A DNA stretch of 64,000 bases, from the NCBI RefSeq assembly GCF_029338555.1, contig NZ_CP119989.1, positions 310,001-374,000 of the forward strand, read 5' to 3'. Both the position numbers and the translations under genes were made by a program. The DNA comes from Halobaculum marinum (GTDB lineage: Archaea > Halobacteriota > Halobacteria > Halobacteriales > Haloferacaceae). Shown here in pieces: positions 10,340-55,250 of the stretch (positions are counted from its first letter, which is position 1; each line of letters begins with the position of its first letter). Below the pieces are notes generated by a model. It was not told where the DNA came from and ran no database searches. It saw only the letters and a program-made list of their open reading frames with translations.

Positions 10340-10348
10340 GCGCGGCGA

Positions 10349-12016
10349 TCAGGTCGAGCGGTGCATGTCGAAGGGGAGTCCGTCGACGCCGTCGCGCTGG
10401 AACGCCTCGATGGCCTCGTTGACCTCGTGGTAGCCGAGGATCCCCTCTTGGATCATCCGCTCGATGAGCTCCGCGCGGAAGCTCAGGTCGTCGTAGATGT
10501 CGCGGGTGTCGGCGTACCCCAGCAGCGTCGCGATCTGTTCTTCGAGCACGTAGGAGTTGTTGCGCCCGCGGAACACGATCTCGTCTTCCACGGGGTCCCA
10601 GTCGAACACCTGCCGGGTGACGACGCCGTCCATCTCCTTGGAGTACCCCTCGATCTCCTGGACGGAGGTGACCCGACGCAGGACCTTGTCGCCCTGCTTG
10701 ACACGGTTCTGGAACAGCGCCACGTCGGCCACGTCCATGAACGTCTCCGGGACGTTGATCGGCTCGGAGGTGAACCGCTGGATCATCGAGACGATGTCGG
10801 ATGCGTGGAACGTCAGCATCACGGGGTGCCCCGTCTGGGCGGCCTGGAACGCCATGCGCCCCTCCGCCCCACGAACCTCACCCATGATGATGTAGTCGGG
10901 GCGCGAACGCAGCGCGGCCGCGACGAGGTCGAACATGTCGACCTCGTTGTCCTCGCCGCCGTCGCCCTCACGGGTCAACAGCTGCTGCCACGTGCTGTGT
11001 GGCGGGATGACCTCCGCGGTGTCCTCTGCGGTGTAGATCTTCGAGTCGCGGGGGATGTACGAGAGGATCGCGTTGAGCGTCGTCGTCTTCCCGGACGCCG
11101 TCTCCCCGACGACGAACACCGTCTGCTCGTTCTCCAGACACAGCCAGAGGTACGCCGACAGCTCCGGCGACAGCGTCCCCCAGTTCGTAATCTGGTTGAT
11201 GGACAGCGGCGTCTCCTCGCCCTGACGGATGGTGAGCGAGGAGCCCTTGATGGAGACGTCGTCGGAGTAGATGATGTTGATACGCGACCCGTCCGGCAGC
11301 GTCGAGTCGACGATGGGGTTGGAGTCGGAGACGGGGTCGCCCATCCGCTCGCCCATGTTGCGCAGCCAGTTGTCGAACTCCTTCGGGGTCCCGAAGTCGA
11401 CGGTCGTCTCCAGCATCCCGAACACGCCGTGATCGACGTGGCACTCCTTCGGGCCGATCACGTGAATGTCCTCGTTCTCCGGGTCGCGCATGACCGGCTC
11501 CAGCGGCCCGAAGCCGACGATGTCGCGGTTGAGGCGGTAGCGGATGTTGTCGTACGTCTGCTTGGACACCTCGATGCGCCCGAAGTTCTTCACCTTCGAG
11601 AGCACCCCCGGACTCGTCTGCTCTTCGGTGACGGCGGTGACCTCCTCCAGCAGCTCCTCGATGAGGTCGTCGTAGCCAGACTCGCCGTCGGGCGCGGGCT
11701 TGTGCCCGCTCTGGCGGAGGAGCTTCGACTTCACCGACTCGAGCACGGACTCCTCGGCGCCCGAGAGGTTCGGCTCGACGGTGTAGTACTTCGTCTCCTG
11801 GCCGAAGTCGCCGTACACGTGACAGAAGATCGGCCCGCCGACGGGGTACAGCACGTTCGGCCGTTGGGCCTCGTGCTCGCCTTCGATCTCGTCGACGAAC
11901 ATCGGGAACTCGCCCGTGATCTGCTTGAACTTCTGCAGGTGCTCCCGAAGGTGGGGGCGCTTCATCGCCAGCTGCTTCAACTCGCTCGACGGATTCGCCT
12001 GTCCCTGGTCTGTCAT
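10349..12016 (-). CDS. arlI: Archaellum assembly/rotation ATPase ArlI (FlaI)
   Basis: 555 residues, hexameric secretion ATPase of the VirB11/PilT superfamily that drives archaellin assembly and rotation at the cytoplasmic face. Visible motifs: Walker A GETASGKTTT, DSKIYTAEDTAEVIPPHSTWQQ (Asp box), RSRPDYIIMGEVRGAEGRMAFQAAQTGHPVMLTFHA (Walker B and His box). The ATG at 12016 overlaps the stop codon of a 32-codon upstream ORF by ATGA, and no separate TATA lies at leaderless distance from it, so translation by coupling is likely. Confidence 0.96.
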   Translation of the reverse strand: MTDQGQANPSSELKQLAMKRPHLREHLQKFKQITGEFPMFVDEIEGEHEAQRPNVLYPVGGPIFCHVYGDFGQETKYYTVEPNLSGAEESVLESVKSKLLRQSGHKPAPDGESGYDDLIEELLEEVTAVTEEQTSPGVLSKVKNFGRIEVSKQTYDNIRYRLNRDIVGFGPLEPVMRDPENEDIHVIGPKECHVDHGVFGMLETTVDFGTPKEFDNWLRNMGERMGDPVSDSNPIVDSTLPDGSRINIIYSDDVSIKGSSLTIRQGEETPLSINQITNWGTLSPELSAYLWLCLENEQTVFVVGETASGKTTTLNAILSYIPRDSKIYTAEDTAEVIPPHSTWQQLLTREGDGGEDNEVDMFDLVAAALRSRPDYIIMGEVRGAEGRMAFQAAQTGHPVMLTFHASDIVSMIQRFTSEPINVPETFMDVADVALFQNRVKQGDKVLRRVTSVQEIEGYSKEMDGVVTRQVFDWDPVEDEIVFRGRNNSYVLEEQIATLLGYADTRDIYDDLSFRAELIERMIQEGILGYHEVNEAIEAFQRDGVDGLPFDMHRST

Positions 12017-12111
12017 CGTTCACACCTCCGCACCGGGGCACCCCGGCGCGAGTTCGCGGCCGACCGCGTGACGGCACCGATCCCCCGGCTCCCTGCAGGG
12101 GTGGTACTCAT
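12013..12111 (-). CDS. Short upstream ORF coupled to arlI
   Basis: 32 residues beginning MSTTPAGSRGIG and ending in an Arg/Cys-rich tail. Its ATG (12111) lies 28-29 bp from the centre of a TATA hexamer (12137-12142), the spacing of a leaderless gene, and its TGA overlaps the arlI ATG as ATGA. The peptide is basic (many Arg), unlike normal haloarchaeal proteins, so the act of translation may matter more than the product. Inference from signals only. Confidence 0.45.
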   Translation of the reverse strand: MSTTPAGSRGIGAVTRSAANSRRGAPVRRCER

Positions 12112-12136
12112 TACGACGACAAACCGACGAGCGAAG

Positions 12137-12170
12137 CATAAAGCCTCCCCGCGAACTATCACGGGCGATA
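12137..12170 (-). promoter_or_regulatory. arlI promoter with TATC-N6-GATA box
   Basis: On the + strand CATAAA (12137-12142) reads TTTATG on the minus strand as TATA element. TATCACGGGCGATA (12157-12170) is the inverted-repeat box, its centre 24 bp upstream of the TATA centre. Expected transcript start is near 12111-12114, the start of the upstream ORF. Confidence 0.6.
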
Positions 12171-12232
12171 ACAGACCGGGTGACGGCAGCGACGACGAGG
12201 GCCGAAGACGCGTGAGTCGGAGACGCGGGGCG

Positions 12233-12991
12233 TCAGGCGACGCTGCGCGACTCGATGACGATGCCGGTGCCCGAGCGGACGGAGAACCCGATGGAGTCAC
12301 CGACCTGACTCCCCATCCCGGCGAAGCGCTTCACCGCGATGTTGCGGCGGACGTCGGAGCCGACCTCGACCATCTGGAGTTCGAGGAACACGTCGGCGAT
12401 GGAGCGGAACGGCCCGATGGCGTCGTCGCCGACCGCCGAGGGGTCGACGGTGAGGACGATCACCTTCCCCGTGGAGATCATGTCCCGGAAGAACGAGATG
12501 ATCTCCAGGGCCGCCTGTCGCTCGTCGTTGTTGCGGACGAGCGCCTCGAACGTTGGGTCGTTCCGGAGGATGGAGTCGAACGTGTCGATGATGATCACGT
12601 CGGAGTTCCACATCACCTCCGCCTCCATCAGCCGCTTGAGTAGCTCCTTGCGCTCGGCGTCGGAGTCGGAGAAGTTGCCGCCGGAGTCGAAGTCCGCCGC
12701 GAGGAACAGCAGGTCCTCGTTGAGCAGCGGCTTCGTCACGTCGTACCCCAGCGAGTACATCTGGTCGATGAACCCGGAGACGGTCATCTCCGTCGACAGC
12801 AGCGTGACCGACGCCCCCTCGTCGACGAGGCCGTAGGAGAACCGCTGGGAGATTGCCGACTTCCCGGCACCGTAGTCACCCTCCATGAGGACGATGGAGC
12901 CGCGGGGAATCCCGCCGCCCAGTTCCTTGTTCAGTTGGTCGCGCTCGGGCATCCCGATCGACAGCAGCGTGTTCTGTTGTGCTCGTGACAT
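12233..12991 (-). CDS. arlH: Archaellum motor regulator ArlH (FlaH)
   Basis: 252 residues, a KaiC/RecA-like ATP-binding protein that forms a ring within the archaellum motor below ArlI/ArlJ. Walker A GDYGAGKS occurs at about residues 39-46 and a Walker B-like VIIIDTFDSIL mid-protein. The C-terminal GSDVRRNIAVKRFAGMGSQVGDSIGFSVRSGTGIVIE is characteristic. Starts 4 bp after arlG; a 121-bp stretch then separates it from the arlI upstream ORF, which has its own promoter. Confidence 0.94.
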   Translation of the reverse strand: MSRAQQNTLLSIGMPERDQLNKELGGGIPRGSIVLMEGDYGAGKSAISQRFSYGLVDEGASVTLLSTEMTVSGFIDQMYSLGYDVTKPLLNEDLLFLAADFDSGGNFSDSDAERKELLKRLMEAEVMWNSDVIIIDTFDSILRNDPTFEALVRNNDERQAALEIISFFRDMISTGKVIVLTVDPSAVGDDAIGPFRSIADVFLELQMVEVGSDVRRNIAVKRFAGMGSQVGDSIGFSVRSGTGIVIESRSVA

Positions 12992-12995
12992 TGGC

Positions 12996-13448
12996 TTAGG
13001 TCCTGAAGCGGAACACTTCCTCGTCTCCGCGCACGACCAGCTTCAGGCGGTGGTCGGTGTCGGAGGTGAGTCCGCCCGTCGCGAACTCGATGCGCACCAC
13101 GTCGCCGCGGTGCCAGGCGTCGCCGCCGTCGACGACGGTGACGGTCACGTCCGTGACGTAGGCGCCGTCGAGGATCACGTCGACGGCCCCCGGATCGACC
13201 GGGAGGTCGGACGCACCCGTGTTGCGGACGTGGATGGTGACGTTCTCGGTCGTGCCGTTGTAGACGCTCGCGCCGGCGTCGGAGACGATCTCCGTGTCGG
13301 CGCGGATCTCGCCGGCGACGTCGAGTGACTTCGCCGAGATGGCGTCGCTGACGCGGTCCACCTCGCTGGTGAGCGTGCCGGCGACGGACGCGGCGATGAC
13401 GATCGCCGCGATGAACAGGATCAGTTCGGCGGCGCTCCCACCCGCCAT
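12996..13448 (-). CDS. arlG: Archaellum stator-associated protein ArlG (FlaG)
   Basis: 150 residues. An N-terminal membrane helix (AAELILFIAAIVIAASVAGTL) is followed by a beta-sandwich pseudo-periplasmic domain with archaellin-like repeats (NVTIHVRNTGASDLPVDPGAVDVILDG). ArlG with ArlF anchors the motor to the S-layer. One base separates it from the arlF stop codon, and the pair is surely translated in concert. Confidence 0.9.
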   Translation of the reverse strand: MAGGSAAELILFIAAIVIAASVAGTLTSEVDRVSDAISAKSLDVAGEIRADTEIVSDAGASVYNGTTENVTIHVRNTGASDLPVDPGAVDVILDGAYVTDVTVTVVDGGDAWHRGDVVRIEFATGGLTSDTDHRLKLVVRGDEEVFRFRT

Positions 13449-13449
13449 C

Positions 13450-13896
13450 TCAGTTCACCCCGACCTCAATCGCGTCGCGGACGCCGTGCTCGACGACGAC
13501 CTGCGTGCGGGCGGGCGCGCTCGTCCCGACGACGATCTCGAAGCGCGCCGTCTCGCCGGGCAGCCACAGGCCGGTGGCGGCGTCGCCCTCGACGGTCACG
13601 GTGACGTTCGCCGTCGGTGGGATCGCGTTGTCGACCAGCAGCGTCGTGTCGTTCACGCCGACGGTCGTCGTGCCGTCGTTGTCGGCGAGCACGACCAGCG
13701 TGTCGTTGCTCGTGTAGTACGTCGCGTTCGTCACGTCGACGGCGGTGTTGGCACGGTCGAGCGCGCGGTCGGCGGCGTCGTGGCGCGCGTCGGTGACCTG
13801 CTCGAAGCCGTTGGCCGCGGCGGGGTAGGCGATGCCGATGGCCAAGAACACCCCGAGGAAGACGACGCCGGAGGAGGCACTAACGCTGAGGCCCAT
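13450..13896 (-). CDS. arlF: Archaellum stator protein ArlF (FlaF)
   Basis: 148 residues. N-terminal helix (VVFLGVFLAIGIAYPAAA) preceded by MGLSVSASS, the usual start of haloarchaeal FlaF, then a helical stalk and an Ig-like extracellular domain with several N-x-T sequons (NATYY, NDTLV, NDTTL, NVTVT). It binds the S-layer and holds the motor static. Its start codon lies inside the last 17 bp of arlCE. Confidence 0.9.
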   Translation of the reverse strand: MGLSVSASSGVVFLGVFLAIGIAYPAAANGFEQVTDARHDAADRALDRANTAVDVTNATYYTSNDTLVVLADNDGTTTVGVNDTTLLVDNAIPPTANVTVTVEGDAATGLWLPGETARFEIVVGTSAPARTQVVVEHGVRDAIEVGVN

Positions 13897-15331
13897 GCAT
13901 GCCTCCCGAGAGCTGCGGCCACCGGTCGATGACGACCGACTCGGCCGTGGCGTCGGTCAACTGCATGATGTACTTGAGCGAGCGCGTGTGGTGGTCCAGG
14001 TCGAGGTGGTCGGTGCCGGGGCGGTCCATCAGGTTGCGGTCGATGTCGCCGAAGCCCGAGAGGAACCCCTTGAGCTGGTCGGCCACCTCGTCGTCGATCC
14101 ACTCGACGCGCTGGTAGTAGTTGACCGCCCGCACCGCGTCGGTCGTGGTGGACTCCTCGACGAGGAACTCCAGCCACTCCATCACCATCAGGTCGCCCAC
14201 GTAGTCGCCCGGCAGCGACGTGAGGTACGGCTTGTCCGGTTCGTCCGAGAGGTCGTCCTCCTCGACGAACTCGAAGCCGCCGTCGTCGTCGACGCCCGCC
14301 GACCGTCGGCTCGGATCGGTCGGAGCCGCCGTCGACTCTGGCTCGGGCTCCGGTTCCGGCTCGTCGCCGAAGCCGAGGTCGTCGGCCTCGTCGTGCCCGT
14401 TGGCCTCTGGTTGGGTGTCGAGTGCGTCGAGCGGGTCGTCCCCGGCGTCCGGTTCGGCCTCGGCGTCTGGGTCGGGCTCGGCGCCCTCGTCCCAGTCGGC
14501 GTCGCCGGACTCGTACTCGTCTTTCAGTTCGCTGAAACTCTTTCCGCCGCCGTTATCGGTCGCCATGGTGTCAGTGTCAGTGTCGTCGTCTTCGTCCCCG
14601 AAGCCGTCGAGGTCGTCGTCGAGTTCGTCCCCTTCGTCCATCTCGTCGAAGTCGTCGAGGTCATCCATGTCGTCCATGTCGCCCATGTCGTCGTCGAGGC
14701 CCTCGCCCGCGAGGTCTTCGTCGAAGAAGCCCTCCGCGTCGGCGCTGGCCAGGTCTTCGTCGAGGTCTTCTTCCTCCTCCTCGTCGCCCGCGTCGTCGAA
14801 CAGGCCGAAGCCGCCCTCGCCGCCGCCGCCGAGGTCGCCGCCGGCTTGCACGTCGTCGACGAAGGGGTTGATCCCCCGCGTGACCATCTCGTAGATGTCG
14901 AGGAGACTCCGCACGTCCTCTCCCATGTCCTCGACCTTCCCGGAGATCTCCTCGTTCTCCGAGCGGACCGTGTTGACGGTCGAGGAGAGGCTCGCGACCT
15001 CGTTCTCGAGGTCGTCGACCCGTTTCTCCAGTTCGGCGACGCCGTCGTCGCCGCCACCGTCTTCCCCCGCGAAGGGGTCGTCATCGTCCCAATCATCCAT
15101 GCCGCCGAGGTCGCCGAGGTCGTCGTCGCCGCCGCCGCCGCCGCCACCGAAGGCGCCGTCGTCGCCGCCCAACAGATCATCGCCGTCGTCGACGTCCCCG
15201 GGCCCGTCGTCGCCGTCGCGGAAGCGGTCGAGCAGGCTGGCTCCCAGCAGCCCGAGCGAGACCAGCAGTCCCGCGTCGGCTCCCGGGATCCCGCCGACCC
15301 ATGCTCCCGATAGCGCGGTGAGGAGACCCAT
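13880..15331 (-). CDS. arlCE: Archaellum cytosolic-ring protein ArlCE (FlaC-FlaE fusion)
   Basis: 483 residues. N-terminal membrane segment (ADAGLLVSLGLLGASLLD), a Gly/Asp low-complexity linker, a FlaC-type coiled coil (VAELEKRVDDLENEVASL) ending near ITRGINPF-like VTRGINPFVDD, a very acidic central stretch of about 200 residues, then a C-terminal FlaD/E domain (KPYLTSLPGDYVGDLMVMEWLEFL). In Euryarchaeota ArlC/D/E receive the CheY-CheF switching signal at the motor. The start at 15331 is leaderless with its own boxed promoter. The acidic central linker is longer than the folded parts and is probably disordered. Confidence 0.92.
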   Translation of the reverse strand: MGLLTALSGAWVGGIPGADAGLLVSLGLLGASLLDRFRDGDDGPGDVDDGDDLLGGDDGAFGGGGGGGDDDLGDLGGMDDWDDDDPFAGEDGGGDDGVAELEKRVDDLENEVASLSSTVNTVRSENEEISGKVEDMGEDVRSLLDIYEMVTRGINPFVDDVQAGGDLGGGGEGGFGLFDDAGDEEEEEDLDEDLASADAEGFFDEDLAGEGLDDDMGDMDDMDDLDDFDEMDEGDELDDDLDGFGDEDDDTDTDTMATDNGGGKSFSELKDEYESGDADWDEGAEPDPDAEAEPDAGDDPLDALDTQPEANGHDEADDLGFGDEPEPEPEPESTAAPTDPSRRSAGVDDDGGFEFVEEDDLSDEPDKPYLTSLPGDYVGDLMVMEWLEFLVEESTTTDAVRAVNYYQRVEWIDDEVADQLKGFLSGFGDIDRNLMDRPGTDHLDLDHHTRSLKYIMQLTDATAESVVIDRWPQLSGGMHGPQR

Positions 15332-15356
15332 TACACCTCACCACCCACGAACGAAC

Positions 15357-15390
15357 CTTAAACCCTGCCCGCGGATTATCGAGGGCGATA
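15357..15390 (-). promoter_or_regulatory. arlCE promoter with TATC-N6-GATA box
   Basis: CTTAAA on the + strand (15357-15362; TTTAAG on the minus strand) is the TATA element, centred 28-29 bp before the ATG at 15331. TATCGAGGGCGATA (15377-15390) is the inverted-repeat box, centred 24 bp upstream of the TATA element; extended by one base each side it is TTATCG-N4-CGATAA, a perfect palindrome. Confidence 0.65.
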
Positions 15391-15541
15391 ACCCCCGTCG
15401 CAGGCGTTCTCCGGGGAGTACGGCCGATCTGTGGATCGTGACTGCGGTCGTGACCGGCGAGAATTCCCGTCAGCGAGGTGGAACGAACGATCCGCGCAGG
15501 CGCGACGCGACCGACGGATCGAGCGAGAACAGGCGGCGGCG

Positions 15542-16093
15542 TTACAGAACGATGGTCTCGCCGCCGGCGTACGAGACGTGCAGGGTTCCGGTGTCGGTCT
15601 CGAAGCGCAGCGAGCGACCGCGAGCGCCGCCGGTGTCGGCGTCGACGAGCGGGATGTCCCGGTCGGCGAGCGCGGCCTCGGCGGCCGCGACGTTGCGTTC
15701 GCCCACGGACCCGGCGTCCTCGCCGAGGTCGAACTCGATCATCTGGGCGGCGCCCGCCACCTTGGCGTGGAGGCCGTCGGGGGGTGCACCGGCGGCCGCC
15801 AGCGCGTCGACCAGCGCGTCGATCCCATCGACGACGAACTTCTCGTCTGCGCCGGGACGGTCTGCCGCCTCGGGCAGCATCGCGTGGAGCAGTCCGCCGA
15901 CGCCGGTCGTCGGGTGGTACAGCGCGACCCCGAGACACGAGCCGAGACCGCTGGTGACGAGCACCGCTCCGTCGGTAGCGACCATCGCGTCGGACAGTCC
16001 GACCTTCCGACGCGGCGGCGACGACTCGCCCGGAACCGGGGACGAGGAACCGCCCGCAGGCGGGGAGTCGGAGGGACTCACGGCGTCGCTCAC
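15542..16093 (-). CDS. cheD: Chemoreceptor glutamine deamidase CheD
   Basis: 183 residues. CheD deamidates receptor glutamines and partners CheC. The catalytic segment LVTSGLGSCLGVALYHPTTGVGGLLHAMLPEA contains the Cys and, further on, His residues of the active site; HAKVAGAAQMIEF and GERNVAAAEAALADRDIPLVDADTGGARGRSLRF are also typical. The first 35 residues are a Ser/Pro-rich extension. The start is GTG, overlapping the cheC stop as GTGA, so the two are coupled. Confidence 0.93.
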   Translation of the reverse strand: MSDAVSPSDSPPAGGSSSPVPGESSPPRRKVGLSDAMVATDGAVLVTSGLGSCLGVALYHPTTGVGGLLHAMLPEAADRPGADEKFVVDGIDALVDALAAAGAPPDGLHAKVAGAAQMIEFDLGEDAGSVGERNVAAAEAALADRDIPLVDADTGGARGRSLRFETDTGTLHVSYAGGETIVL

Positions 16094-17289
16094 CGAGGGA
16101 GGCCGCCGTCTGTCGCGGCGGGCTCGATGCGGTCCAACGCCGCCGCCAGCTCTCGCTGGTCGGGCAGCGCGTAGATGTCACACCGGACGTTGCCGTCGGG
16201 GGTCCGGACGGTCGAGTCGATGATGAAGGCGTGGTCTTGCGTCTGTCCGAGCCGACTCACGAGCGGGCTCATCACCGCCGACCCCATGTCGTGGACGAAC
16301 TGCGGCGGCGTGTGCTCGATACTCGTTCCGAGCACGTTCGCCCAGCCGTCGATGAACCCGGAGGTCATGATGTTGCCCAACTCGCGGAGGGCACCCTTCT
16401 CCATGTCTCCGATCCCGGGCTCGGTCTCGGTGGGGATCATGCCGCTGGCGACCTCCTCGGCGGAGGCCTCGTCGAACAGGATGGCGAGGTAGCCGCTCGG
16501 GTCGCCGTGCAACTCGAACACCGTTCCGGCGACGGTCTCTTTGCCCAACTCGGAGGGCACGTCCTGCACCGGGACGAAGCGGAGCCGCGACACGTCGACG
16601 TCCGTCTCGGTACCGGTCATCATCGTGATGTTGTCGGCGGCGGAGGCCGCCCCCTGCCGGGTCATCTCGTTGAACGTCGGCAGTTTGTTCACCGGCACGG
16701 CGTCGCCCGCCTCGCCGACGGGGCCGTCGTGGCCGAGCATGTCCGTGAAGCCGGCGTACTCCGGGAGCATGTAGATCGTGAACTCCAGGTCCTCGTCCAT
16801 CGACGACACGCTCGACTCGAACATGAACACACCCTTGCGGTCGTCGTCGAACGCGCCGTCCGGGAGCACGTCCGTTCCCGACGCACGGATGTACGCGGGC
16901 GGCGTCATGTCGATGGCGACGCCGAGGTGGTCTGCCCACCCGTCGATGAACCCGGAGGTCATGATGTTGCCCGCCTCGGTGACGCCGCTCCTGACGAGTT
17001 CGCCGTCGCCGCCCCCCGGCAACAGTCGGTCGACGAGGTTGCGCGCGGCGTCCATTTCGAACGCCATCACCGTCTGTCCGCTGATACCGCCGTCCAGACC
17101 GATCTCGACGCCGACGAACTCGCGGCCGGCGAACGCCTCCCGCAGGTCGCCCGCGGCCATCAGCGTCACGTCGGTCACGTCGACGTACACGTTCGCCCCC
17201 GCGAGCTGTCCCAGCGCGTCCGCCGCGCGGTCTGCTCCCTGGCTCGCGAGGTCCGAGAACTCCCCCAGCGACTGGATGTCGACGTACAT
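16090..17289 (-). CDS. cheC: CheC-type CheY-phosphatase, two-domain
   Basis: 399 residues from ATG at 17289. Two CheC repeats are visible, each with the phosphatase signature E-x2-N: VTEAGNIMTSGFIDGWADHL in the first half and LRELGNIMTSGFIDGWANVL in the second, each followed by the TPP(A/Q) motif. CheC removes phosphate from CheY-P and binds CheD. The gene starts 2 bp after cheY and overlaps cheD by 4 bp, forming one adaptation/signal-termination unit. Confidence 0.93.
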   Translation of the reverse strand: MYVDIQSLGEFSDLASQGADRAADALGQLAGANVYVDVTDVTLMAAGDLREAFAGREFVGVEIGLDGGISGQTVMAFEMDAARNLVDRLLPGGGDGELVRSGVTEAGNIMTSGFIDGWADHLGVAIDMTPPAYIRASGTDVLPDGAFDDDRKGVFMFESSVSSMDEDLEFTIYMLPEYAGFTDMLGHDGPVGEAGDAVPVNKLPTFNEMTRQGAASAADNITMMTGTETDVDVSRLRFVPVQDVPSELGKETVAGTVFELHGDPSGYLAILFDEASAEEVASGMIPTETEPGIGDMEKGALRELGNIMTSGFIDGWANVLGTSIEHTPPQFVHDMGSAVMSPLVSRLGQTQDHAFIIDSTVRTPDGNVRCDIYALPDQRELAAALDRIEPAATDGGLPR

Positions 17290-17291
17290 CC

Positions 17292-17654
17292 CTACGCTGG
17301 GACGACGTCGTTGATGGCTTCGAGCACGTTCGGCTTCTGGAACGGTTTCGTGATGTACCCCTCGGCGCCCGCCTTCACCGCGGCCTTCATCTTCTCTTCT
17401 TGCCCGACGCTGGTGCACATGATGATGCTCGCGTCCGGGTGCTCCTCCGTGATCTCGGTCGTGGCCTCGATTCCGTTGCGGATCGGCATGACGATGTCCA
17501 TCATCACGATGTCGGGGGCGTGTTCGCTGTAGAGGTCGACTGCCTCCACACCGTTCTCGGCCTCGCCGACGATCTCGAACTCTCCTTCGAGGATCTCCCG
17601 CAGGAGGTTCCGCATGAACTCCGAGTCGTCTGCGATCAGCACGCTAGTCGGCAT
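17292..17654 (-). CDS. cheY: Chemotaxis response regulator CheY
   Basis: 120 residues, single receiver domain. Acid pocket D9-D10, phospho-acceptor D53 (DIVMMDIVMP), Thr in CTSVG and Lys in ITKPFQ are all present. CheY-P carries the switching signal to the archaellum through CheF. First gene of cheY-cheC-cheD, with a leaderless promoter (TATA hexamer 17681-17686). cheA, cheB, cheR and cheW are not in the window. Confidence 0.96.
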   Translation of the reverse strand: MPTSVLIADDSEFMRNLLREILEGEFEIVGEAENGVEAVDLYSEHAPDIVMMDIVMPIRNGIEATTEITEEHPDASIIMCTSVGQEEKMKAAVKAGAEGYITKPFQKPNVLEAINDVVPA

Positions 17655-17680
17655 ATATGAGATCGGCTCCCGGGAGCGAT

Positions 17681-17714
17681 GATAAACGCTCCCCTGCGGG
17701 TATCAGCCGTGAAA
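17681..17714 (-). promoter_or_regulatory. cheY promoter with variant TATC-N6-GAAA box
   Basis: GATAAA on the + strand (17681-17686; TTTATC on the minus strand) is the TATA element, 29-30 bp before the cheY ATG. TATCAGCCGTGAAA (17701-17714) is centred exactly 24 bp upstream of it and differs from the arlI/arlCE box by one base in the right half-site. Confidence 0.55.
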
Positions 17715-17751
17715 ACCGGAGGGCGACCGGCTACAACCGGAGAGCGACCGG

Positions 17752-18657
17752 CTACAGTTCCAGCCCGTCCTCGCGGTCGAGCGCGGCCAGGAGGTCCGTC
17801 ATCGTGTCGTCGCGCGACATCCCGAGTCGCGCCAACGCCCGCCGAACGGCGTCGGGCGGGACCCGCGGCCCCGACTCCATGTTCGACAGGAGGATCCCGA
17901 GCGCCTCCTGCGGTGGCGTGTCGCCGCCGGCGGCGTCCGCGAACCAGGTGACGAGCGTCTCGAACGTCTCGGCCACGTCGTCGGACGCCATCCGGTGGCG
18001 GGCCGTCCGCCCGTCGAGCGACAGGGTCGCGTCGAACCCGTAGGCGAACTCCGTGTCCGCCAACGAGGCGGCGAGCCACTGTCCGACCGCGCCCGCGTCC
18101 AGTTCGCCGGACGAGGTGTCGCCGACTGCGTCACCGCGGGGGGCGCCGCGGCGCGCGTGTGAGGCGGGACGATCCCGAGTGCCCGCCTGGCCGGCACCAG
18201 CGTCGGTGTCCGCCGTCCCGGTTGGATCGGTCGGCAGGCCGTCGGCGGCGCCGTCAGGCGTCGACGGGTCGGCTGCCGGAGTGGCGTCTGTGGTCCCGGC
18301 GGTCCCGGAGCCCGGGCCGGCGCGCCCGGGACTCACGGCGTCGGCGGCGGTGTCTGCCGTCGTCCCGGGTGCGTCTGTCGACGTGCCGGCCGGATCCGCC
18401 GTCGCACTGGGGCCGTCGTCCGGGGAGAGTCCCTCGCGGGCGGCCTCGGCAGTCGCGGCCGCGTCGATCTCGGGGGCGTCGTCGCCCGCGTCGGCGGAGC
18501 CGTCGTCGGGCTCCTCCTCACGGGGTTGGCGCGGCGGGCGGCGGCCCGGCGAGACGACGTAGCGGTCGTCGCCCAGCTCGCGGACGTACTCGCTCTTGGA
18601 AATGTCGAGGTCGTCCGGGTCGAGGCCGGGGTTGCCGCGCGGCGCGTCGTCGCTCAT
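17752..18657 (-). CDS. Motility-cluster accessory protein, unrecognised
   Basis: 301 residues. A conserved-looking N-terminus (LDPDDLDISKSEYVRELGDDRYVVSPGRRPP) is followed by about 120 residues of Asp/Ala/Pro/Thr low complexity, then a folded C-terminus (LDAGAVGQWLAASLADTEFAYGFDATLSLDGRTARHRMASDDVAETFETLVTWFAD). Soluble. It sits between the archaellins and cheY with its own TATA-like element (18682-18687), a position that suggests a motility or chemotaxis adaptor. Function not known from sequence. Confidence 0.75.
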   Translation of the reverse strand: MSDDAPRGNPGLDPDDLDISKSEYVRELGDDRYVVSPGRRPPRQPREEEPDDGSADAGDDAPEIDAAATAEAAREGLSPDDGPSATADPAGTSTDAPGTTADTAADAVSPGRAGPGSGTAGTTDATPAADPSTPDGAADGLPTDPTGTADTDAGAGQAGTRDRPASHARRGAPRGDAVGDTSSGELDAGAVGQWLAASLADTEFAYGFDATLSLDGRTARHRMASDDVAETFETLVTWFADAAGGDTPPQEALGILLSNMESGPRVPPDAVRRALARLGMSRDDTMTDLLAALDREDGLEL

Positions 18658-18681
18658 AGTACGGTGTTCTGTGGTGTACGC

Positions 18682-18687
18682 TAAAAA
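18682..18687 (-). promoter_or_regulatory. TATA element of accessory gene and archaellin terminator
   Basis: TAAAAA on the + strand (TTTTTA on the minus strand) lies 28 bp before the ATG at 18657, and just downstream of the archaellin stop (18704), so the same T-run can end the archaellin transcript and start the next gene. The TATC box is absent here. Confidence 0.5.
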
Positions 18688-18703
18688 GTGTGGGCGGGCC
18701 GGT

Positions 18704-19309
18704 CTACAGCTCGACGCCCTGCCGGTCCCCGAGCGACTCGGGCACCGTGAAGCGGATCGTCGTCGTCGCGCCGGCGCGCGTGTTGATCTTGATCGTTACC
18801 TCTTCGCCCTCGTTGAGCACCTCGGGCTGCCCGCTGCCGCTACCGAGGTCGAAGTCGATGTTGAACCGGTCGTCCGGATCGTCGAGGACGGTGTTAGAGC
18901 CGTCGGCGTTCTTCACGACCGAGGTCTGGAAGTCGTCGTCCACCGAGGTGGACGCGTTCACGTGGTTGAGCATGAACGTCCCGTCCGGACCGATCCAGGT
19001 GATGGTCGTGTTCTCGAGGTCGATCTCGCCGGCACCGGGCGCCAGCGTCACCGTCACGTTGACGGCGTCGATGAACGGCCCGCTGCCGGTGTCGGTGACG
19101 TTACCGACGGTGGCGACCTCCTGGAGACGGTTACTGACCTGCTTACTGCTCTGGGTCCCCGTCTCCTGGGCCTTGCTCTGGAGGAAGCCGGCGGTGTTGA
19201 CCAGGACGCCCGCAGCGATCGCTGCCACGAGCACCATCGCGATGAACACGATGAGCGTCCCGATACCGACCTGCCCGCGCTCTTCCTCCTCAGTGACGAA
19301 CTCGAACAC
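18704..19309 (-). CDS. arlB: Archaellin (second gene of tandem)
   Basis: 201 residues. Class III signal peptide [12 protein letters not shown] followed by [18 protein letters not shown]; the prepilin peptidase is expected to cut after RG. The hydrophobic helix forms the filament core; the rest is a beta-rich outer domain with N-glycosylation sequons (NVTDT, NVTVT, NTTIT, NASTS). The C-terminus [26 protein letters not shown] is shared with the first archaellin. It starts 2 bp after that gene, so it has no promoter of its own. Confidence 0.96.
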
Positions 19310-19311
19310 GG

Positions 19312-19908
19312 TTACAGTTCGACGGCGCTCTTCTGGCCGAGCGATTCGGGCACCGTGAAGCGGATGCTCGTGGTCGCGCCGGACATCGTGTTGATCTTGA
19401 TCGTCACTTCCTCACCCTCGGAGAGCTTGCCGGGGCCGTTGGCCGTGGTGTTGAGGAGGAAGTTGACGTTGAAGCGGTCGTCCGCGTCGTTCAGCACCGT
19501 GTTGGAGCCGTCGGTGTTCTTCACCGCCGTGGTGTTGAACTGCCAGTTGGTTCCGGAGGCTTCGTCGTGCGTCAGCGTCTCGGTCCCCGACGGACCGATC
19601 CAGTTGATCGTCGCATTCTGGAGGTCGATTTCGCCGGCCCCGGGCGCCTGCGTCACGGTCACGTTGACCGCGTATATCTGGTTGTTCGCCGTGTCGACCT
19701 GCCCGACAGTGACGACCTCCTGGAGCCGGTTACTGACCTGCTTGCTCGACTGCTGACCCGTCTCCTGCGACTTACTTTGGAGGAAGCCGGCGGTGTTGAT
19801 GAGGACGCCCGCGGCGATCGCCGCCACGAGCACCATCGCGATGAACACGATGAGCGTCCCGATACCAACCTGCCCGCGCTCTTCCTCGTCTGTGATGAAT
19901 TCGAACAT
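19312..19908 (-). CDS. arlA: Archaellin (first gene of tandem)
   Basis: 198 residues, same plan as the following archaellin: [12 protein letters not shown] then [18 protein letters not shown], with the processing site between. The N- and C-terminal thirds are nearly identical to the downstream copy while the middle differs. Sequons include NVTVT, NATIN and NTTAV/NTTAN. The promoter gives a leader of about 40 nt, unlike the leaderless neighbours. The A/B letter is positional only. Confidence 0.95.
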
Positions 19909-19974
19909 TTGTGGTTCTCTCGGTCCCGTCCCGTTCGTGGGGCGGGCTCTGTAGGCGACGACTCAGATTTCAGT

Positions 19975-50225: not shown

Positions 50226-51341
50226 TCAGACCAGCCCGAGCGCCCCGAGGACGACCGTCAGCGCGTCGCCGTACGTCAACGCGAGCAGGAGGCCGCCGAA
50301 CAGGGGGACGAGGAACGGGAGGCCCGGCGACACCCACAGCGCGTCCTCGCTGGTGACGCGCTCCAACCCCTCGCGCAGACGCTCGGGAGAGGTGCCGTAG
50401 GCGCTCCCCTCGATGTCGCCGAGGAAGCGCTCGGCCGCCCACGGGTCCTCCGCACCCGCGGGTTCCGACGCGTCGCCGGCGGTCACCGACTCGGGTTCGG
50501 TCGCGACCGCGTCGTCCGCGGCGTCGGGGAACTCGAAGCCGCCGGTGTCGTCGGTCGGGCCGACGTCCCCGGTCCCGCCGTCCGTCCGGGGACCGTCGTG
50601 GACCGCGCCGTCGGTCGGCGGGTGCGTCTCACCGACGGACGCCGGGTCGCGGTGGGCGTCGGGGGCCGCGCGCACGGCCGCGAGCGTCGTACCACGCCAC
50701 CGGAGGTACATCCGCAGGGCGTCGAGGTCGAGGCCGCGAACCGGGCGGAGTCCGTCGACACGGATTATCTGGCCGTGCACCTCGGGGAGGTCGTCCACGG
50801 CGGTCCACCGCCCGACGAACATCGCCGGCGAGAGGCGACCGGCGACGACGTTGGAGGCGAACAGCAGGGCGATGTAGCCGGCGCCGAACAGCACCGCGTT
50901 CGTCAGCGCCGACATCGCCGCGACCCCGAGCGCGGACGGGTGGGCGGGGAATCCGACCGTGTGGAGCCACGTCACGTCCGGGAGAATCCACAGGGGGACG
51001 ACGTACTGCGGGGTGGTCGGGAACGCGACCGCGAGCACGACGAGCGCCTTCATGTCGGCGCCGCCGAAGGCGGCCATCCGGTAGGCGAGGAAGGAGAACG
51101 GGATCAGAAACAGGAGCGAGAAGCCCGCCCGCACGAGGAACAGCCGCCCGGCGTAGTCGTCGAACGGGAACGCCGCCGCGGCGTCGATGGCGAACGCGAG
51201 GGCACCGATCGCGAGTAGTGGGTACCACAGGGAACTGGAGACGCGACGGGTGCGGATGTCGCGGTAGGCGGCCCACGCGAAGCCAGGGAGCAGCAGCAAG
51301 CGGAGGAGGTCGGCCGCGGTCGCGATGCCGAAGACGCGCAT
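50226..51341 (-). CDS. pibD: Type IV prepilin/prearchaellin peptidase (A24 family)
   Basis: 371 residues. The membrane aspartyl protease core has AAYRDIRTRRVSSSLWYPLL (first Asp) and FGGADMKALVVLAVAFP (GxxD motif with second Asp). About 120 residues of acidic low complexity are inserted before a last helix (PFLVPLFGGLLLALTYGDA). It removes the class III signal peptides of archaellins and pilins, so it should process both archaellins and the pilin-like protein in this window. Confidence 0.9.
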   Translation of the reverse strand: MRVFGIATAADLLRLLLLPGFAWAAYRDIRTRRVSSSLWYPLLAIGALAFAIDAAAAFPFDDYAGRLFLVRAGFSLLFLIPFSFLAYRMAAFGGADMKALVVLAVAFPTTPQYVVPLWILPDVTWLHTVGFPAHPSALGVAAMSALTNAVLFGAGYIALLFASNVVAGRLSPAMFVGRWTAVDDLPEVHGQIIRVDGLRPVRGLDLDALRMYLRWRGTTLAAVRAAPDAHRDPASVGETHPPTDGAVHDGPRTDGGTGDVGPTDDTGGFEFPDAADDAVATEPESVTAGDASEPAGAEDPWAAERFLGDIEGSAYGTSPERLREGLERVTSEDALWVSPGLPFLVPLFGGLLLALTYGDALTVVLGALGLV

Positions 51342-51459: not shown

Positions 51460-51849
51460 TCAGATGACGCGGTTCTGGAGGTAGTCCAGGTGCTTCGCGT
51501 TGTAGACGATCTTGATCTCGTCGGCCTGGGGCGACCCGATGCAGGTCAGACGGACGTTCTTGTCCTCGACCTCCTCGTCGGAGAGGATCTGCTGCATGTC
51601 CATCTCGATTTCACCCTCCTTCAGGATCGCCGCGCAGTTCGCGCAGGCGCCGGCGCGGCACGAGAAGGGCCAGTCGTAGCCCTGAGCCTCGGCGGCCTCG
51701 AGGATGTACTCGCCCTCGTTCACTTCGAGGGAACCGTAGTCCTCCGCGTCCAGCCCCGCATCCGCGGCGTTGGCGAAGAGGTCGTCGTCGTCGAGGTCCC
51801 AGCCGTTGTCGTCCAGCACTTCGTAGTTGAGGTATTCGACCGTGGGCAT
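51460..51849 (-). CDS. fdx: Halophilic [2Fe-2S] ferredoxin
   Basis: 129 residues. [13 protein letters not shown] plus a later Cys (RLTCIGSP) form the plant-type cluster site. The acidic N-terminal insertion ([31 protein letters not shown]) is the hallmark of haloarchaeal ferredoxins. Electron carrier for 2-oxoacid:ferredoxin oxidoreductases and possibly the aldehyde oxidoreductase here. Confidence 0.96.
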
Positions 51850-52009: not shown

Positions 52010-53194
52010 CTACAGCGGTGCGAACGCGAACAGCGCGTAGGAAGCGGCGAACGACAGCGACGGCGTGAGGATCCAGAAGAAGACGACGCGGCCAGTCGTC
52101 CCGGGGTCGAACAGGTCCTCCGCGAGGAGGTCGTCTTCCTCCTCCTCGCCGACGCGGGGCACCTCGTCGGGCGAGGAGCGCTCGGCGGTGAGCGCGTTCA
52201 CCGACACCTCCGGCCGCTCGCGCTCGCCCCCGTCTGCTCCGGCGCCGATGGCGCCGCCGACGGCGTCGCCGATGGTCGTCGTCCGGGTGGCGCGCCCCCA
52301 CCCGAGGCCGACGATTGACATCGTCGCCGACACCGCTAGCGAGGCGGGAATCCCGATCGCAGAGAGGAACGTGATCATGCTCGCGGACACCACCTCGACG
52401 ATCAGCGCCGCCAGCAGCGGCAGGTCCGTGAGGTCGTTGCCGACGGTGTCGAGCGTCCGTCGGGCGATGGTGAACGCCCCGAGCGCGATGGCGCCGCCAG
52501 CGAGCAACACGCCCTGACTCGCGGTCACCGAGCCGTTGCCGACCAGCGGCGCGACCGCGTTGGCGGCGTTGGACGCGCCCGCCGAGAACGCCATGTAGCA
52601 GGCGATCACGAGCACGAGAAGCGTGCCGACCAGTTCCTTGGGGGTCGTCCCGTCGGTGATCCGAGGGCGGAGGCCGTCGAGTTCGACGACGGCACCGGGT
52701 GAGCGGTCGATGGCGAAGGCGGCGTCGAGATACGGGTAGAGGTAGCGACCGATGACCGCACAGATCCAGAACGCGACGACGGGCGCGACGAGCCACCAGC
52801 CGACGATGCGGAGCATCACCTCCGAGTCGAGCGTCCCCGTCGCCGCCCCGAGACCCGCGATGGCGCCGACGGCGGTCATGGACGTGGAGGCAGGGACGCC
52901 GAAGGTGTTGGAGACGAGCAGCGCCAGCCCCACGAAGAAGAGGACGGCGACGCTGGCGGTCAGCGTGAACTGCGCGGCGGGGACGATCTCCCCGCCCATC
53001 GTGTTGATGACCTCCCGGCCGACCGTCCACCCGCCCGCGAGCGCGAACAGCGACATGAGCGCCGCCGCCGCGGTCTTCGAGAGCGTGCCGCTCCCCACCG
53101 CCGGCCCGAACGAGACGCCGGTCGACGAGCCGCCGATGTTGAACCCGACGAACACCGCGACCAACAGTCCGACCAGCAGGAGTGCCTCGACCAC
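52010..53194 (-). CDS. pitA: Inorganic phosphate transporter, PiT family
   Basis: 394 residues, GTG start with TATA-like CTATAC (minus strand; 53218-53223) 27 bp before. Two inverted PiT repeats: GFNIGGSSTGVSFGPAVG in the N-half and GASNAANAVAPLVGNG in the C-half, separated by a short cytoplasmic loop. About ten helices; an acidic loop (RVGEEEEDDLLAEDLFD) precedes the last helix. Cation-coupled phosphate uptake. Confidence 0.9.
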   Translation of the reverse strand: MVEALLLVGLLVAVFVGFNIGGSSTGVSFGPAVGSGTLSKTAAAALMSLFALAGGWTVGREVINTMGGEIVPAAQFTLTASVAVLFFVGLALLVSNTFGVPASTSMTAVGAIAGLGAATGTLDSEVMLRIVGWWLVAPVVAFWICAVIGRYLYPYLDAAFAIDRSPGAVVELDGLRPRITDGTTPKELVGTLLVLVIACYMAFSAGASNAANAVAPLVGNGSVTASQGVLLAGGAIALGAFTIARRTLDTVGNDLTDLPLLAALIVEVVSASMITFLSAIGIPASLAVSATMSIVGLGWGRATRTTTIGDAVGGAIGAGADGGERERPEVSVNALTAERSSPDEVPRVGEEEEDDLLAEDLFDPGTTGRVVFFWILTPSLSFAASYALFAFAPL

Positions 53195-53254: not shown

Positions 53255-54247
53255 TCAGCCCCACCACACCCAGTCGTCCCACCAGCCACCGCCGCCTCCG
53301 TCGTCACCGCCGTCGCCGCCGTCTCCACCGTCTCCATCGCCTCCGTCGTCGTCTCCGCCCCACACCCAATCGTCCCACCAGTCCCACCAATCCCACCAGC
53401 CGTCGTCCCAGTCGCCCCACCAGTCCCACCAGTCGTCGGCGTCCGCGACCGTGACGTGCTGGTCGGCGAGCGTCTCGTCGGTCGCGCCGACTGCCGACGT
53501 CCCGTCTGCGTCGGCGGCGCGGACGAACTCGACGGTGTAGTCGCCGGGTTCCGCGGCGACCGCCGCACCGTACTCGTCGGCCGAGACCGCGAAGTCGTCC
53601 CGGTCGAGGCGAGCCACGACGGCGCCGTCTGTGTCGCGGACGCGGACGTCGAGCGTCGCCAACGCGGCGTCGGACTCCACCTCGACGTCGATCCCCTCCC
53701 CGTCGCCCTCGGCGTCGAACTCCTCGACGACGGGTGGGTCGGCAGGCGGTGGTGTCGGTGTGGCTGTGGGCGTCGCGGTCGGTGTGGCTGTCGGCGTCGC
53801 CGTGGGCGTCGCGGTCGGTGTTGCGGTCGGCGTCGCCGCCGGGAGGACGATCCGGCCGTCGTCGACGACGCCGCCGGTGGGGACGTGGACGACCAGCACG
53901 CGGACGCCGCCGGTCCGGTTCGCCAGCGCTCCCGGGACAGTCACGCGCTCGCCGGGGTCGAACCGGCCGTCCGCGAGCGCCCCGTCGTCGGGGGCGTCGT
54001 CTCCGGGTATGGAGTCGCCGTCGACGACGAAGCGGATCGTCTCCACCGGGAGCGCGTCGCCGCCGCGATGGACGACGACGAGGCTCGCGCCGTCCCGCTC
54101 GAAGTCGTACTCGCCGAGAGGGGTCAACTCTCGGTCAGAGGGGGCGACCGACTCGACGACCGCGAGTCCGACTGTCGTCGTCACCACCAAGACGACCGCC
54201 GTCGCGGCGATCACACCGACGAGGTCAGCCTGTGCGCGGTCGGCCAT
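53255..54247 (-). CDS. Pilin-like protein with Pro/Thr stalk and Trp-rich tail
   Basis: 330 residues. N-terminus RAQADLVGVIAATAVVLVVTTTVG resembles an archaeal type IV pilin helix. A beta domain, then (ATPT)n stalk (encoded by about 53755-53835), a second beta domain, and a 60-residue tail with 18 Trp in an Asp/Gly background; the motif WWDDWVW occurs twice, on either side of a (GD)n linker. The tail is unlike any family I know. Divergent from htpX, sharing its regulatory region. Expected surface-exposed. Confidence 0.8.
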   Translation of the reverse strand: MADRAQADLVGVIAATAVVLVVTTTVGLAVVESVAPSDRELTPLGEYDFERDGASLVVVHRGGDALPVETIRFVVDGDSIPGDDAPDDGALADGRFDPGERVTVPGALANRTGGVRVLVVHVPTGGVVDDGRIVLPAATPTATPTATPTATPTATPTATPTATPTPPPADPPVVEEFDAEGDGEGIDVEVESDAALATLDVRVRDTDGAVVARLDRDDFAVSADEYGAAVAAEPGDYTVEFVRAADADGTSAVGATDETLADQHVTVADADDWWDWWGDWDDGWWDWWDWWDDWVWGGDDDGGDGDGGDGGDGGDDGGGGGWWDDWVWWG

Positions 54248-54274: not shown

Positions 54275-54296
54275 ATAATCGGTCGGATCCGATTAT
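54275..54296 (-). promoter_or_regulatory. Inverted repeat over the pilin-like gene promoter
   Basis: Arms ATAATCGG (54275-54282) and CCGATTAT (54289-54296) are perfect complements with a 6-base loop. The left arm overlaps the expected TATA position of the pilin-like gene (27-30 bp before its ATG). Confidence 0.5.
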
Positions 54297-54316: not shown

Positions 54317-54351
54317 GGGGATCGGCTCCGATCCCCACGACAGCGTTTAAG
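54317..54351 (+). promoter_or_regulatory. htpX: htpX promoter and perfect inverted repeat
   Basis: TATA-like GTTTAAG at 54345-54351 is 27 bp before the htpX ATG. Directly upstream, GGGGATCGG (54317-54325) and CCGATCCCC (54328-54336) form a perfect 9-bp palindrome with a 2-base spacer, centred about 21 bp from the TATA. It shares the ATCGG/CCGAT core with the repeat at 54275-54296. Confidence 0.55.
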
Positions 54352-54374: not shown

Positions 54375-55250
54375 ATGGAATGGAAGACGGACTGGGGACT
54401 CCGCGGTCGCATGGTGCTGACCGGGTTCCTCCTGTTCGCCCTCTACATCGTGTTCGGCGCCGTCGTCCTCCGGTTGGGCTACGGTGGGATGCTCATCTTC
54501 ATGGTGCCGTTCCTGTTCGCGCAGTTCTTCTTCAGCGACAGGCTCGCCCTCTACTCGATGGGCGCCAAGGAGGTGTCCGAACAGGAGTACCCCGACCTGC
54601 ACCGCACGATCACCCGGCTGTCTCAACAGGCCGACCTGCCGAAGCCGAAGGTCGCCGTCGCTGACTCGCGGGTCCCGAACGCGTTCGCGACCGGGCGCTC
54701 GCAGAAGAAGTCCGCCGTCTGCGTGACGACCGGCCTCCTGCGCACCCTCGACGACGAGGAGTTGGAGGGCGTGCTCGCCCACGAGCTCGCGCACATCAAG
54801 AACCGCGACGTGATGGTGATGACCATCGCGTCGTTCCTGTCGACGCTGGCGTTCATCATCGTGCGCTGGGGCTGGCTGTTCGGCGGCGGCGGCGACAGCC
54901 GCGGCGGCAACCAGGCACCCGTGCTCGTCGCCATCCTCGTGTCGCTGGTCGTGTGGGTGGTCTCGTTCCTGCTCATCCGCATGCTGTCGCGCTACCGCGA
55001 GTTCGCGGCCGACCGCGGCGGTGCGGCCATCTCCGGCAAACCCGGCGCGCTCGCGTCGGCACTGATCACCATCGACAGCGGCATGGACCGCGTCCCGAAA
55101 GAGGACCTGCGCGACACCGCCGAGATGAACGCGTTCTTCGTCATCCCGATCAAGTCCGGCTTCGTCGGGAAGCTGTTCTCCACCCACCCGAGCACGGAGA
55201 AGCGCGTCGAGCGCCTCCGCGCGCTGGAGCGCGAACTCGAGTCGGCCTGA
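54375..55250 (+). CDS. htpX: HtpX-family membrane zinc metalloprotease
   Basis: 291 residues from ATG at 54375. HELAH in VLAHELAHIKNRDVMVM is the zinc site, with Glu downstream in REFAADRGGAAISGKP. Four membrane helices. Degrades damaged membrane proteins. The ATG at 54354 upstream is inconsistent with the TATA position. PspAB follows two genes later, supporting a membrane-stress role. Confidence 0.93.
   Translation: MEWKTDWGLRGRMVLTGFLLFALYIVFGAVVLRLGYGGMLIFMVPFLFAQFFFSDRLALYSMGAKEVSEQEYPDLHRTITRLSQQADLPKPKVAVADSRVPNAFATGRSQKKSAVCVTTGLLRTLDDEELEGVLAHELAHIKNRDVMVMTIASFLSTLAFIIVRWGWLFGGGGDSRGGNQAPVLVAILVSLVVWVVSFLLIRMLSRYREFAADRGGAAISGKPGALASALITIDSGMDRVPKEDLRDTAEMNAFFVIPIKSGFVGKLFSTHPSTEKRVERLRALERELESA

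Follow-up and report, generated by a model that had tools for sequence, protein, structure and literature searches.

A gene of Halobaculum marinum encodes a pilin-like protein whose last 60 residues, DDWWDWWGDWDDGWWDWWDWWDDWVWGGDDDGGDGDGGDGGDGGDDGGGGGWWDDWVWWG, hold 18 Trp and carry a net charge of -21, while the remaining 270 residues hold no Trp at all. The original prediction had singled out this tail, describing 18 Trp in the last 60 or so residues of the protein and the motif WWDDWVW repeated around a Gly/Asp linker, and our count confirms the description: WWDDWVW flanks a 25-residue Gly/Asp linker at both ends. We asked whether so unusual a tail is genuine, where else it or something like it occurs, and what it might do on a pilin-like protein. 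Brine, in which charge is screened and hydrophobic contacts dominate, offers a setting for asking how proteins stick together or to surfaces, and a discrete, transplantable Trp module on a pilin-like protein would be a simple handle on stickiness under such conditions. For Haloferax volcanii alone, 47 substrates of the prepilin peptidase PibD have been predicted, few of them with a known function (PMC4371748).

Anatomy of a divergent pilin-like protein

The gene occupies an open reading frame for 330 amino acids, from an ATG start to a TGA stop, on the minus strand of the window, by which we mean the whole 64,000-nucleotide stretch that was analysed. Its parts, in window coordinates, are these:

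53255-54247, minus strand: whole gene, pilin-like surface protein with a Trp/Asp/Gly tail (330 amino acids; stop included)
54233-54247, minus strand: prepilin leader MADRA, residues 1-5 (sequence and the processing rules of PMC4371748)
54152-54232, minus strand: hydrophobic N-terminal helix (H-domain), residues 6-32 (sequence; AF2 helix 3-33 at low pLDDT)
53843-54115, minus strand: pilin-type beta domain, residues 45-135 (AF2 pLDDT about 80; best match 8fj5)
53732-53842, minus strand: Ala/Thr/Pro stalk of ATPT repeats, residues 136-172 (sequence; tandem repeats)
53438-53731, minus strand: second beta-rich domain, residues 173-270 (AF2 strands 174-243; alignment A1)
53360-53437, minus strand: first Trp cluster of the tail, residues 271-296, DDWWDWWGDWDDGWWDWWDWWDDWVW, 13 Trp
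53285-53359, minus strand: Gly/Asp spacer of the tail, residues 297-321, 25 residues (longest Trp-free run exceeding that of shuffles, P 0.0001)
53258-53284, minus strand: terminal Trp cluster of the tail, residues 322-330, WWDDWVWWG, 5 Trp

Both the prepilin-type N-terminus and the ATPT stalk that had been read from the letters are present, the stalk being evident from sequence and tandem repeats. Archaeal prepilins are cut at sites such as RAQI or RAVS, with Gly, Ala or Ser at -1 and a charged residue at -2 (PMC4371748). Set against these rules, the predicted cleavage after Ala5, between MADRA and QADLVGVIAATAVVLVVTTTVGLAVV, has Arg at -2, Ala at -1 and Gln at +1 and is followed by a hydrophobic helix, the make-up of a class III (prepilin) signal.

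The identification as a pilin-like surface protein is supported by fold as well as by motif. Structure prediction, which had been proposed as a check, yielded a pilin beta domain modelled by AF2 from only three sequences (pLDDT about 80) that lies nearest to archaeal pilus subunits. A Foldseek search with the predicted domain returned the Haloferax volcanii type IV pilus, 8fj5, at E 7.8e-5 as its sole match below 0.001; VIA-align likewise placed 8fj5 in the top row (Z 9.9, 93 residues, 3.7 Å), followed by 8rey, an archaeal filament subunit (Z 8.5), and then by unrelated sandwich folds at Z of about 8. An N-terminal helix and a small beta domain, the elements of a pilin fold, are thus both found, the helix itself with low confidence. 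The full-length AF2 model of the 330-residue protein is poor (pLDDT 60, pTM 0.34) and says nothing reliable about the tail, within which it draws residues 272-296 as a helix.

Like archaeal type IV pilins (PF07790; 8fj5), the protein has R-A before a hydrophobic helix and a beta fold; unlike them, it adds a stalk, a second domain and a Trp-rich tail, and its match to the Pfam profile PF07790 (Pilin_N), at 15.6 bits (E 0.03), falls short of the gathering cut-off of 25.2 bits. All four members of alignment A1 match Pilin_N, the best at E 5.3e-7. A search of the window protein for the almost invariant PilA-type H-domain found it absent, the H-domain there reading QADLVGVIAATAVVLVVTTTVG; other pilins of the same genome do have it. 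We therefore class it as a divergent pilin-like protein rather than a PilA-type pilin. As for an archaeosortase (PGF-CTERM) signal, the C-terminus WWDDWVWWG has neither a TM helix nor basic residues.

The tail as genuine coding sequence

Across 55 coding-like frames in the window, 1.1% of residues are Trp, and outside the tail the count in any 60 residues peaks at 5; the Trp excess of the tail is far beyond chance. G+C at codon positions 1/2/3 is 0.71/0.61/0.83 in the tail and 0.79/0.53/0.89 in the body, and by this position-specific composition the tail lies in the coding frame. Because its Gly codons are a mixture of GGC, GGA and GGT and its Asp codons a mixture of GAC and GAT, the tail is no fresh product of slippage, and short repeats, 9 and 33 bp long and arranged in tandem in its DNA, may show a route by which it grew in the past.

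The original prediction had itself raised the possibility that the tail is a frameshift or assembly error, and the low complexity of the DNA, with other reading frames partly open across the stretch, lends the idea some footing. It is not borne out. Besides the coding-type G+C, comparable in-frame tails occur at the same locus in two species of another genus (L019 and L037, described below), which excludes an assembly error private to the window genome; these orthologs refute an artefact in practice, and we consider it exceedingly improbable.

Syntenic orthologs and a patchy distribution

The gene and its ortholog-bearing loci are best described from the neighbouring genes in the window:

54375-55250, plus strand: HtpX/M48 peptidase, divergent from the pilin gene, synteny anchor (PF01435)
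52010-53194, minus strand: phosphate permease of the PHO4 family, separated by 60 bp from the pilin gene, which lies upstream on the same strand (PF01384, E 6e-43)
51460-51849, minus strand: 2Fe-2S ferredoxin (PF00111; synteny)
50226-51341, minus strand: A24 prepilin peptidase, PibD-like, downstream of the pilin gene at a distance of about 1.9 kb (PF01478 and PF06847)

A search of 170 genomes of the family revealed a syntenic ortholog in three others. Two belong to another genus (L019 in genome G102 and L037 in G101) and have a gene of the same protein family flanked by htpX and PHO4, encoding proteins that end in VDVDDDDGGWWDDWWGGDDDGQEDPDDRGDGGWNWWPW and ADEDWWDGGWWDDWWGGDDGDGGDDDTGGTDGGDWWRW, respectively, with 8 and 9 Trp in their tails. 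They share with the window protein the htpX/pilin/PHO4 locus, the architecture and a W/D/G tail with a terminal WWxW, but their tails have fewer Trp and their second domain is short or absent. The third, L006 (G010), comes from the window's own genus; the gene adjoins htpX, and its product ends in five Glu and then poly-Asp, without Trp. Identity to the window protein over the pilin domain is 43% (G010), 40% (G102) and 37% (G101), and alignment A1 shows the second domain kept in G010, partial in G102 and absent in G101. Since L037 retains the tail, placed directly after the stalk, in a protein that lacks the second domain, the tail is a separable module that comes and goes independently of that domain. 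C-terminal tails can evidently turn over quickly on a retained scaffold, W/D/G in one species and poly-Asp in a congener.

Of the 11 genomes in the window's genus, 9 lack the gene at the locus, as does 1 of the 3 in the other genus. htpX and PHO4 directly adjoin in nine of these ten gene-less genomes, the exception being G007, with no PHO4 match within the stretch examined. Given this patchiness at the locus, the gene may be either old and often lost or spread through exchange of the locus. The L006 locus has no PHO4 permease, which puts the ferredoxin gene immediately next to the pilin-like one.

The three Trp-bearing tails, from the window, L019 and L037, are built alike: each has a cluster rich in WW, then a spacer rich in Gly and Asp, and last a terminal WWxW. 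When tail pairs were scored against shuffled tails of equal composition, the score exceeded that of shuffles for window-L037 (P 0.006), window-L019 (P 0.048) and L019-L037 (P under 0.0002). Each of the three tails has a longer Trp-free spacer than its shuffles (P 0.0001, 0.037 and 0.0055), and Trp enrichment at the extreme end is significant in L019 alone of the three. With a thin basis of three Trp tails, two of them from one genus, these comparisons give modest evidence for a shared plan in which a WW cluster containing WWDDW-WGGDD is followed by a spacer of Gly and Asp and then by a Trp-rich end.

Acidic tails and WWDDW motifs elsewhere

Pilin-like proteins with an 'RAQS... H.GGD' domain are common across haloarchaea, and many haloarchaeal pilin-like proteins end in acidic low-complexity tails of poly-D, D/E or E/N. 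A D-rich tail is found in Halopenitus persicus (L105), an acidic D tail with scattered W in L132 and a Y/E tail in L130; in the group to which the latter two belong, four of the six members have an acidic stretch without aromatic residues. These proteins and L148 resemble the window protein in their RAQS-type start, 'H.GGD' beta domain and acidic C-terminus, but their tails are of the D, D/E, E/N, Y/E or D-plus-scattered-W kind, none with WW-rich clusters. Judged by such comparisons, the Trp-rich tail is a rare form of a common feature, whose usual state is a Trp-free acidic tail.

Tail variety is wide even among close counterparts. The pilin-like proteins L130 (G091) and L132 (G072) are orthologs of each other, yet their aromatic/acidic tails differ greatly, one reading EYEYTYEYEYTYEIGNYLYEYEYNYEW and the other DDWDDDDWGDDEDDWDDD; their relatives L159 and L160 have plain poly-Asp, and the last 70 or so residues of a pilin-like protein in G405 (L148) are nearly all Glu and Asn.

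WWDDW-type motifs also stand beside a TM segment in small two-TM proteins of other haloarchaea (L059, L073, L078, L082 and L068), all of which we take to be SHOCT-like. Four of these (L059, L073, L078 and L082) share WWDDW, of the WWDDWWGEE type, in an acidic setting with the pilin tail, but they are small membrane proteins without a pilin domain and unrelated to the pilin; the motif is probably convergent. In searches for the DNA patterns of WWDWW and WWDDW, the matches inspected beyond the three tailed genes were chance frames or SHOCT-like proteins, and seven viral matches to WWDWWDWW proved to be chance frames or simple repeats.

A separate database search with the tail, another check that had been proposed, found only the tail itself at E 0.001 among 392 genomes, in a search insensitive to low complexity that also missed the known G101 tail. 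A scan of 84,980 genomes seeded with short exact patterns, which can miss relatives, gave none for the single window protein and only two distant pilins with the alignment as query; plasmids and viral contigs likewise held no relatives. Over residues 271-330, Pfam and NCBIfam profiles gave no match, carbohydrate-binding and RTX modules included. PDB sequence matches over the tail were weak and to single-chain antibody linkers, and those to the ATPT stretch (circumsporozoite repeats) were low-complexity chance. A literature search for Trp-rich tails in archaea, with most subscription papers outside its coverage, found none. The claim that no described family resembles this protein holds for one half of it: the tail is real and its Trp/Asp version apparently undescribed in profile libraries, the PDB and the literature, whereas the pilin-like scaffold is already known, the N-terminal part belonging to a large haloarchaeal pilin-like group with many acidic-tailed members.

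A possible adhesin with stickers and a spacer

Surface adhesion of H. volcanii needs PibD (PMC4343526), and pilins can promote adhesion even when they are not part of a pilus (PMC4371748). From the computed anatomy, pilin fold and tailed syntenic orthologs we infer a course that leads through PibD cleavage, retention of the helix and exposure of the tail at the surface to adhesion. The prepilin peptidase would act on the gene product, a pilin that would either join a type IV pilus as a minor subunit or stay in the membrane, held there by its N-helix. The A24 peptidase at 50226-51341 is likely the processing enzyme, and with eight other Pilin_N proteins over the cut-off and six T2SSE-family ATPases, the genome has pilin processing and assembly machinery. 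Cleavage would be expected after Ala5, leaving the N-helix in the pilus core or the membrane; the pilin beta domain would then be surface-exposed, with the C-terminus pushed outward by the second domain and the proline-rich stalk. There the two Trp clusters would act as stickers, while the Asp/Gly stretch would keep the chain soluble and flexible in brine. Contacts of Trp with Trp, with carbohydrate or with a surface, strengthened by high salt, would bind partner tails of neighbouring cells, S-layer glycans or solid surfaces. Molar salt screens the charge repulsion between Asp residues and favours aromatic contacts, which makes a Trp/Asp/Gly tail a plausible glue. The tail is probably a sticky surface module; the fuller reading, a PibD-processed, surface-displayed pilin-like adhesin with Trp clusters as stickers on a soluble Gly/Asp spacer, is one that we favour tentatively and rate somewhat short of an even chance.

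The strongest objection to an adhesive Trp tail comes from the poly-Asp ortholog in G010, which shows that this gene can do without Trp, as would be expected if acidity alone were the function. The absence of the gene from the locus in most genomes of its own genus and the greater commonness of Trp-free acidic tails also count against an adhesin, as do the small number of Trp tails and the sub-threshold Pilin_N score. The poly-Asp ortholog and the patchy presence of the gene, with the many pilin-like proteins that have D, D/E or E/N tails and the 9 and 33 bp tandem repeats, favour the main rival to the adhesin: a passive acidic low-complexity extension that maintains solubility and hydration in brine, its Trp having arisen by repeat expansion and drift and having no role. 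Yet Trp, an expensive and hydrophobic residue, is the last thing that a tail meant for solubility would call for and, with its single codon, should be purged fast by drift; instead, two genera with pilin domains just 37-40% identical have both kept Trp-rich tails, with residue order conserved beyond shuffles. A passive tail is a serious alternative that we nonetheless find rather unlikely.

The shared WWDDW-WGGDD core and Trp-rich terminus resemble a short recognition motif, and the Trp clusters might instead dock on one defined partner of the cell's own, be it the S-layer glycoprotein, a further pilin or a secreted enzyme, and hold the protein in the envelope rather than attach cells to surfaces. 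Motif number and spacing vary between species, however, and no partner gene is conserved next door save PHO4 and htpX, which also adjoin where the pilin is missing, leaving such docking doubtful. Known carbohydrate-binding modules hold sugars on aromatic platforms, and RTX-type proteins bind Ca2+ through repeats rich in Gly and Asp; by analogy, the Trp faces could stack on sugars and the Gly/Asp stretch could bind Ca2+ or Mg2+, the tail folding on binding. Against this speak the Pfam, NCBIfam and PDB sequence searches, with no such module over the tail, and the lack of any visible RTX nonapeptide register, and we think a carbohydrate- or metal-binding module quite improbable.

Returning to the adhesin, a wider generalization would make aromatic/acidic low-complexity C-terminal tails (W/D/G in the window protein, Y/E and D/W in further pilin-like ones) an undescribed class of haloarchaeal adhesive modules, a salt-strengthened sticker-and-spacer glue that in saturated brine would hold cells to one another or to surfaces; this bolder proposal is speculative, and we judge it unlikely.

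Other features of the locus

The same 64 kb that hold the PibD-like peptidase also hold an apparent archaellum cluster (window 8591-19962), with FlaJ/FlaI/FlaH-like frames and two archaellin-like frames. Inspection by eye of the 120 bp that precede the pilin gene in L006, L019 and L037 showed no inverted repeats comparable to those of the window. In the window, the pilin-like and htpX genes diverge from a gap of 106 bp that contains two perfect inverted repeats, ATAATCGG-6-CCGATTAT and GGGGATCGG-2-CCGATCCCC (54275-54296 and 54317-54336), which are possible candidate operators.
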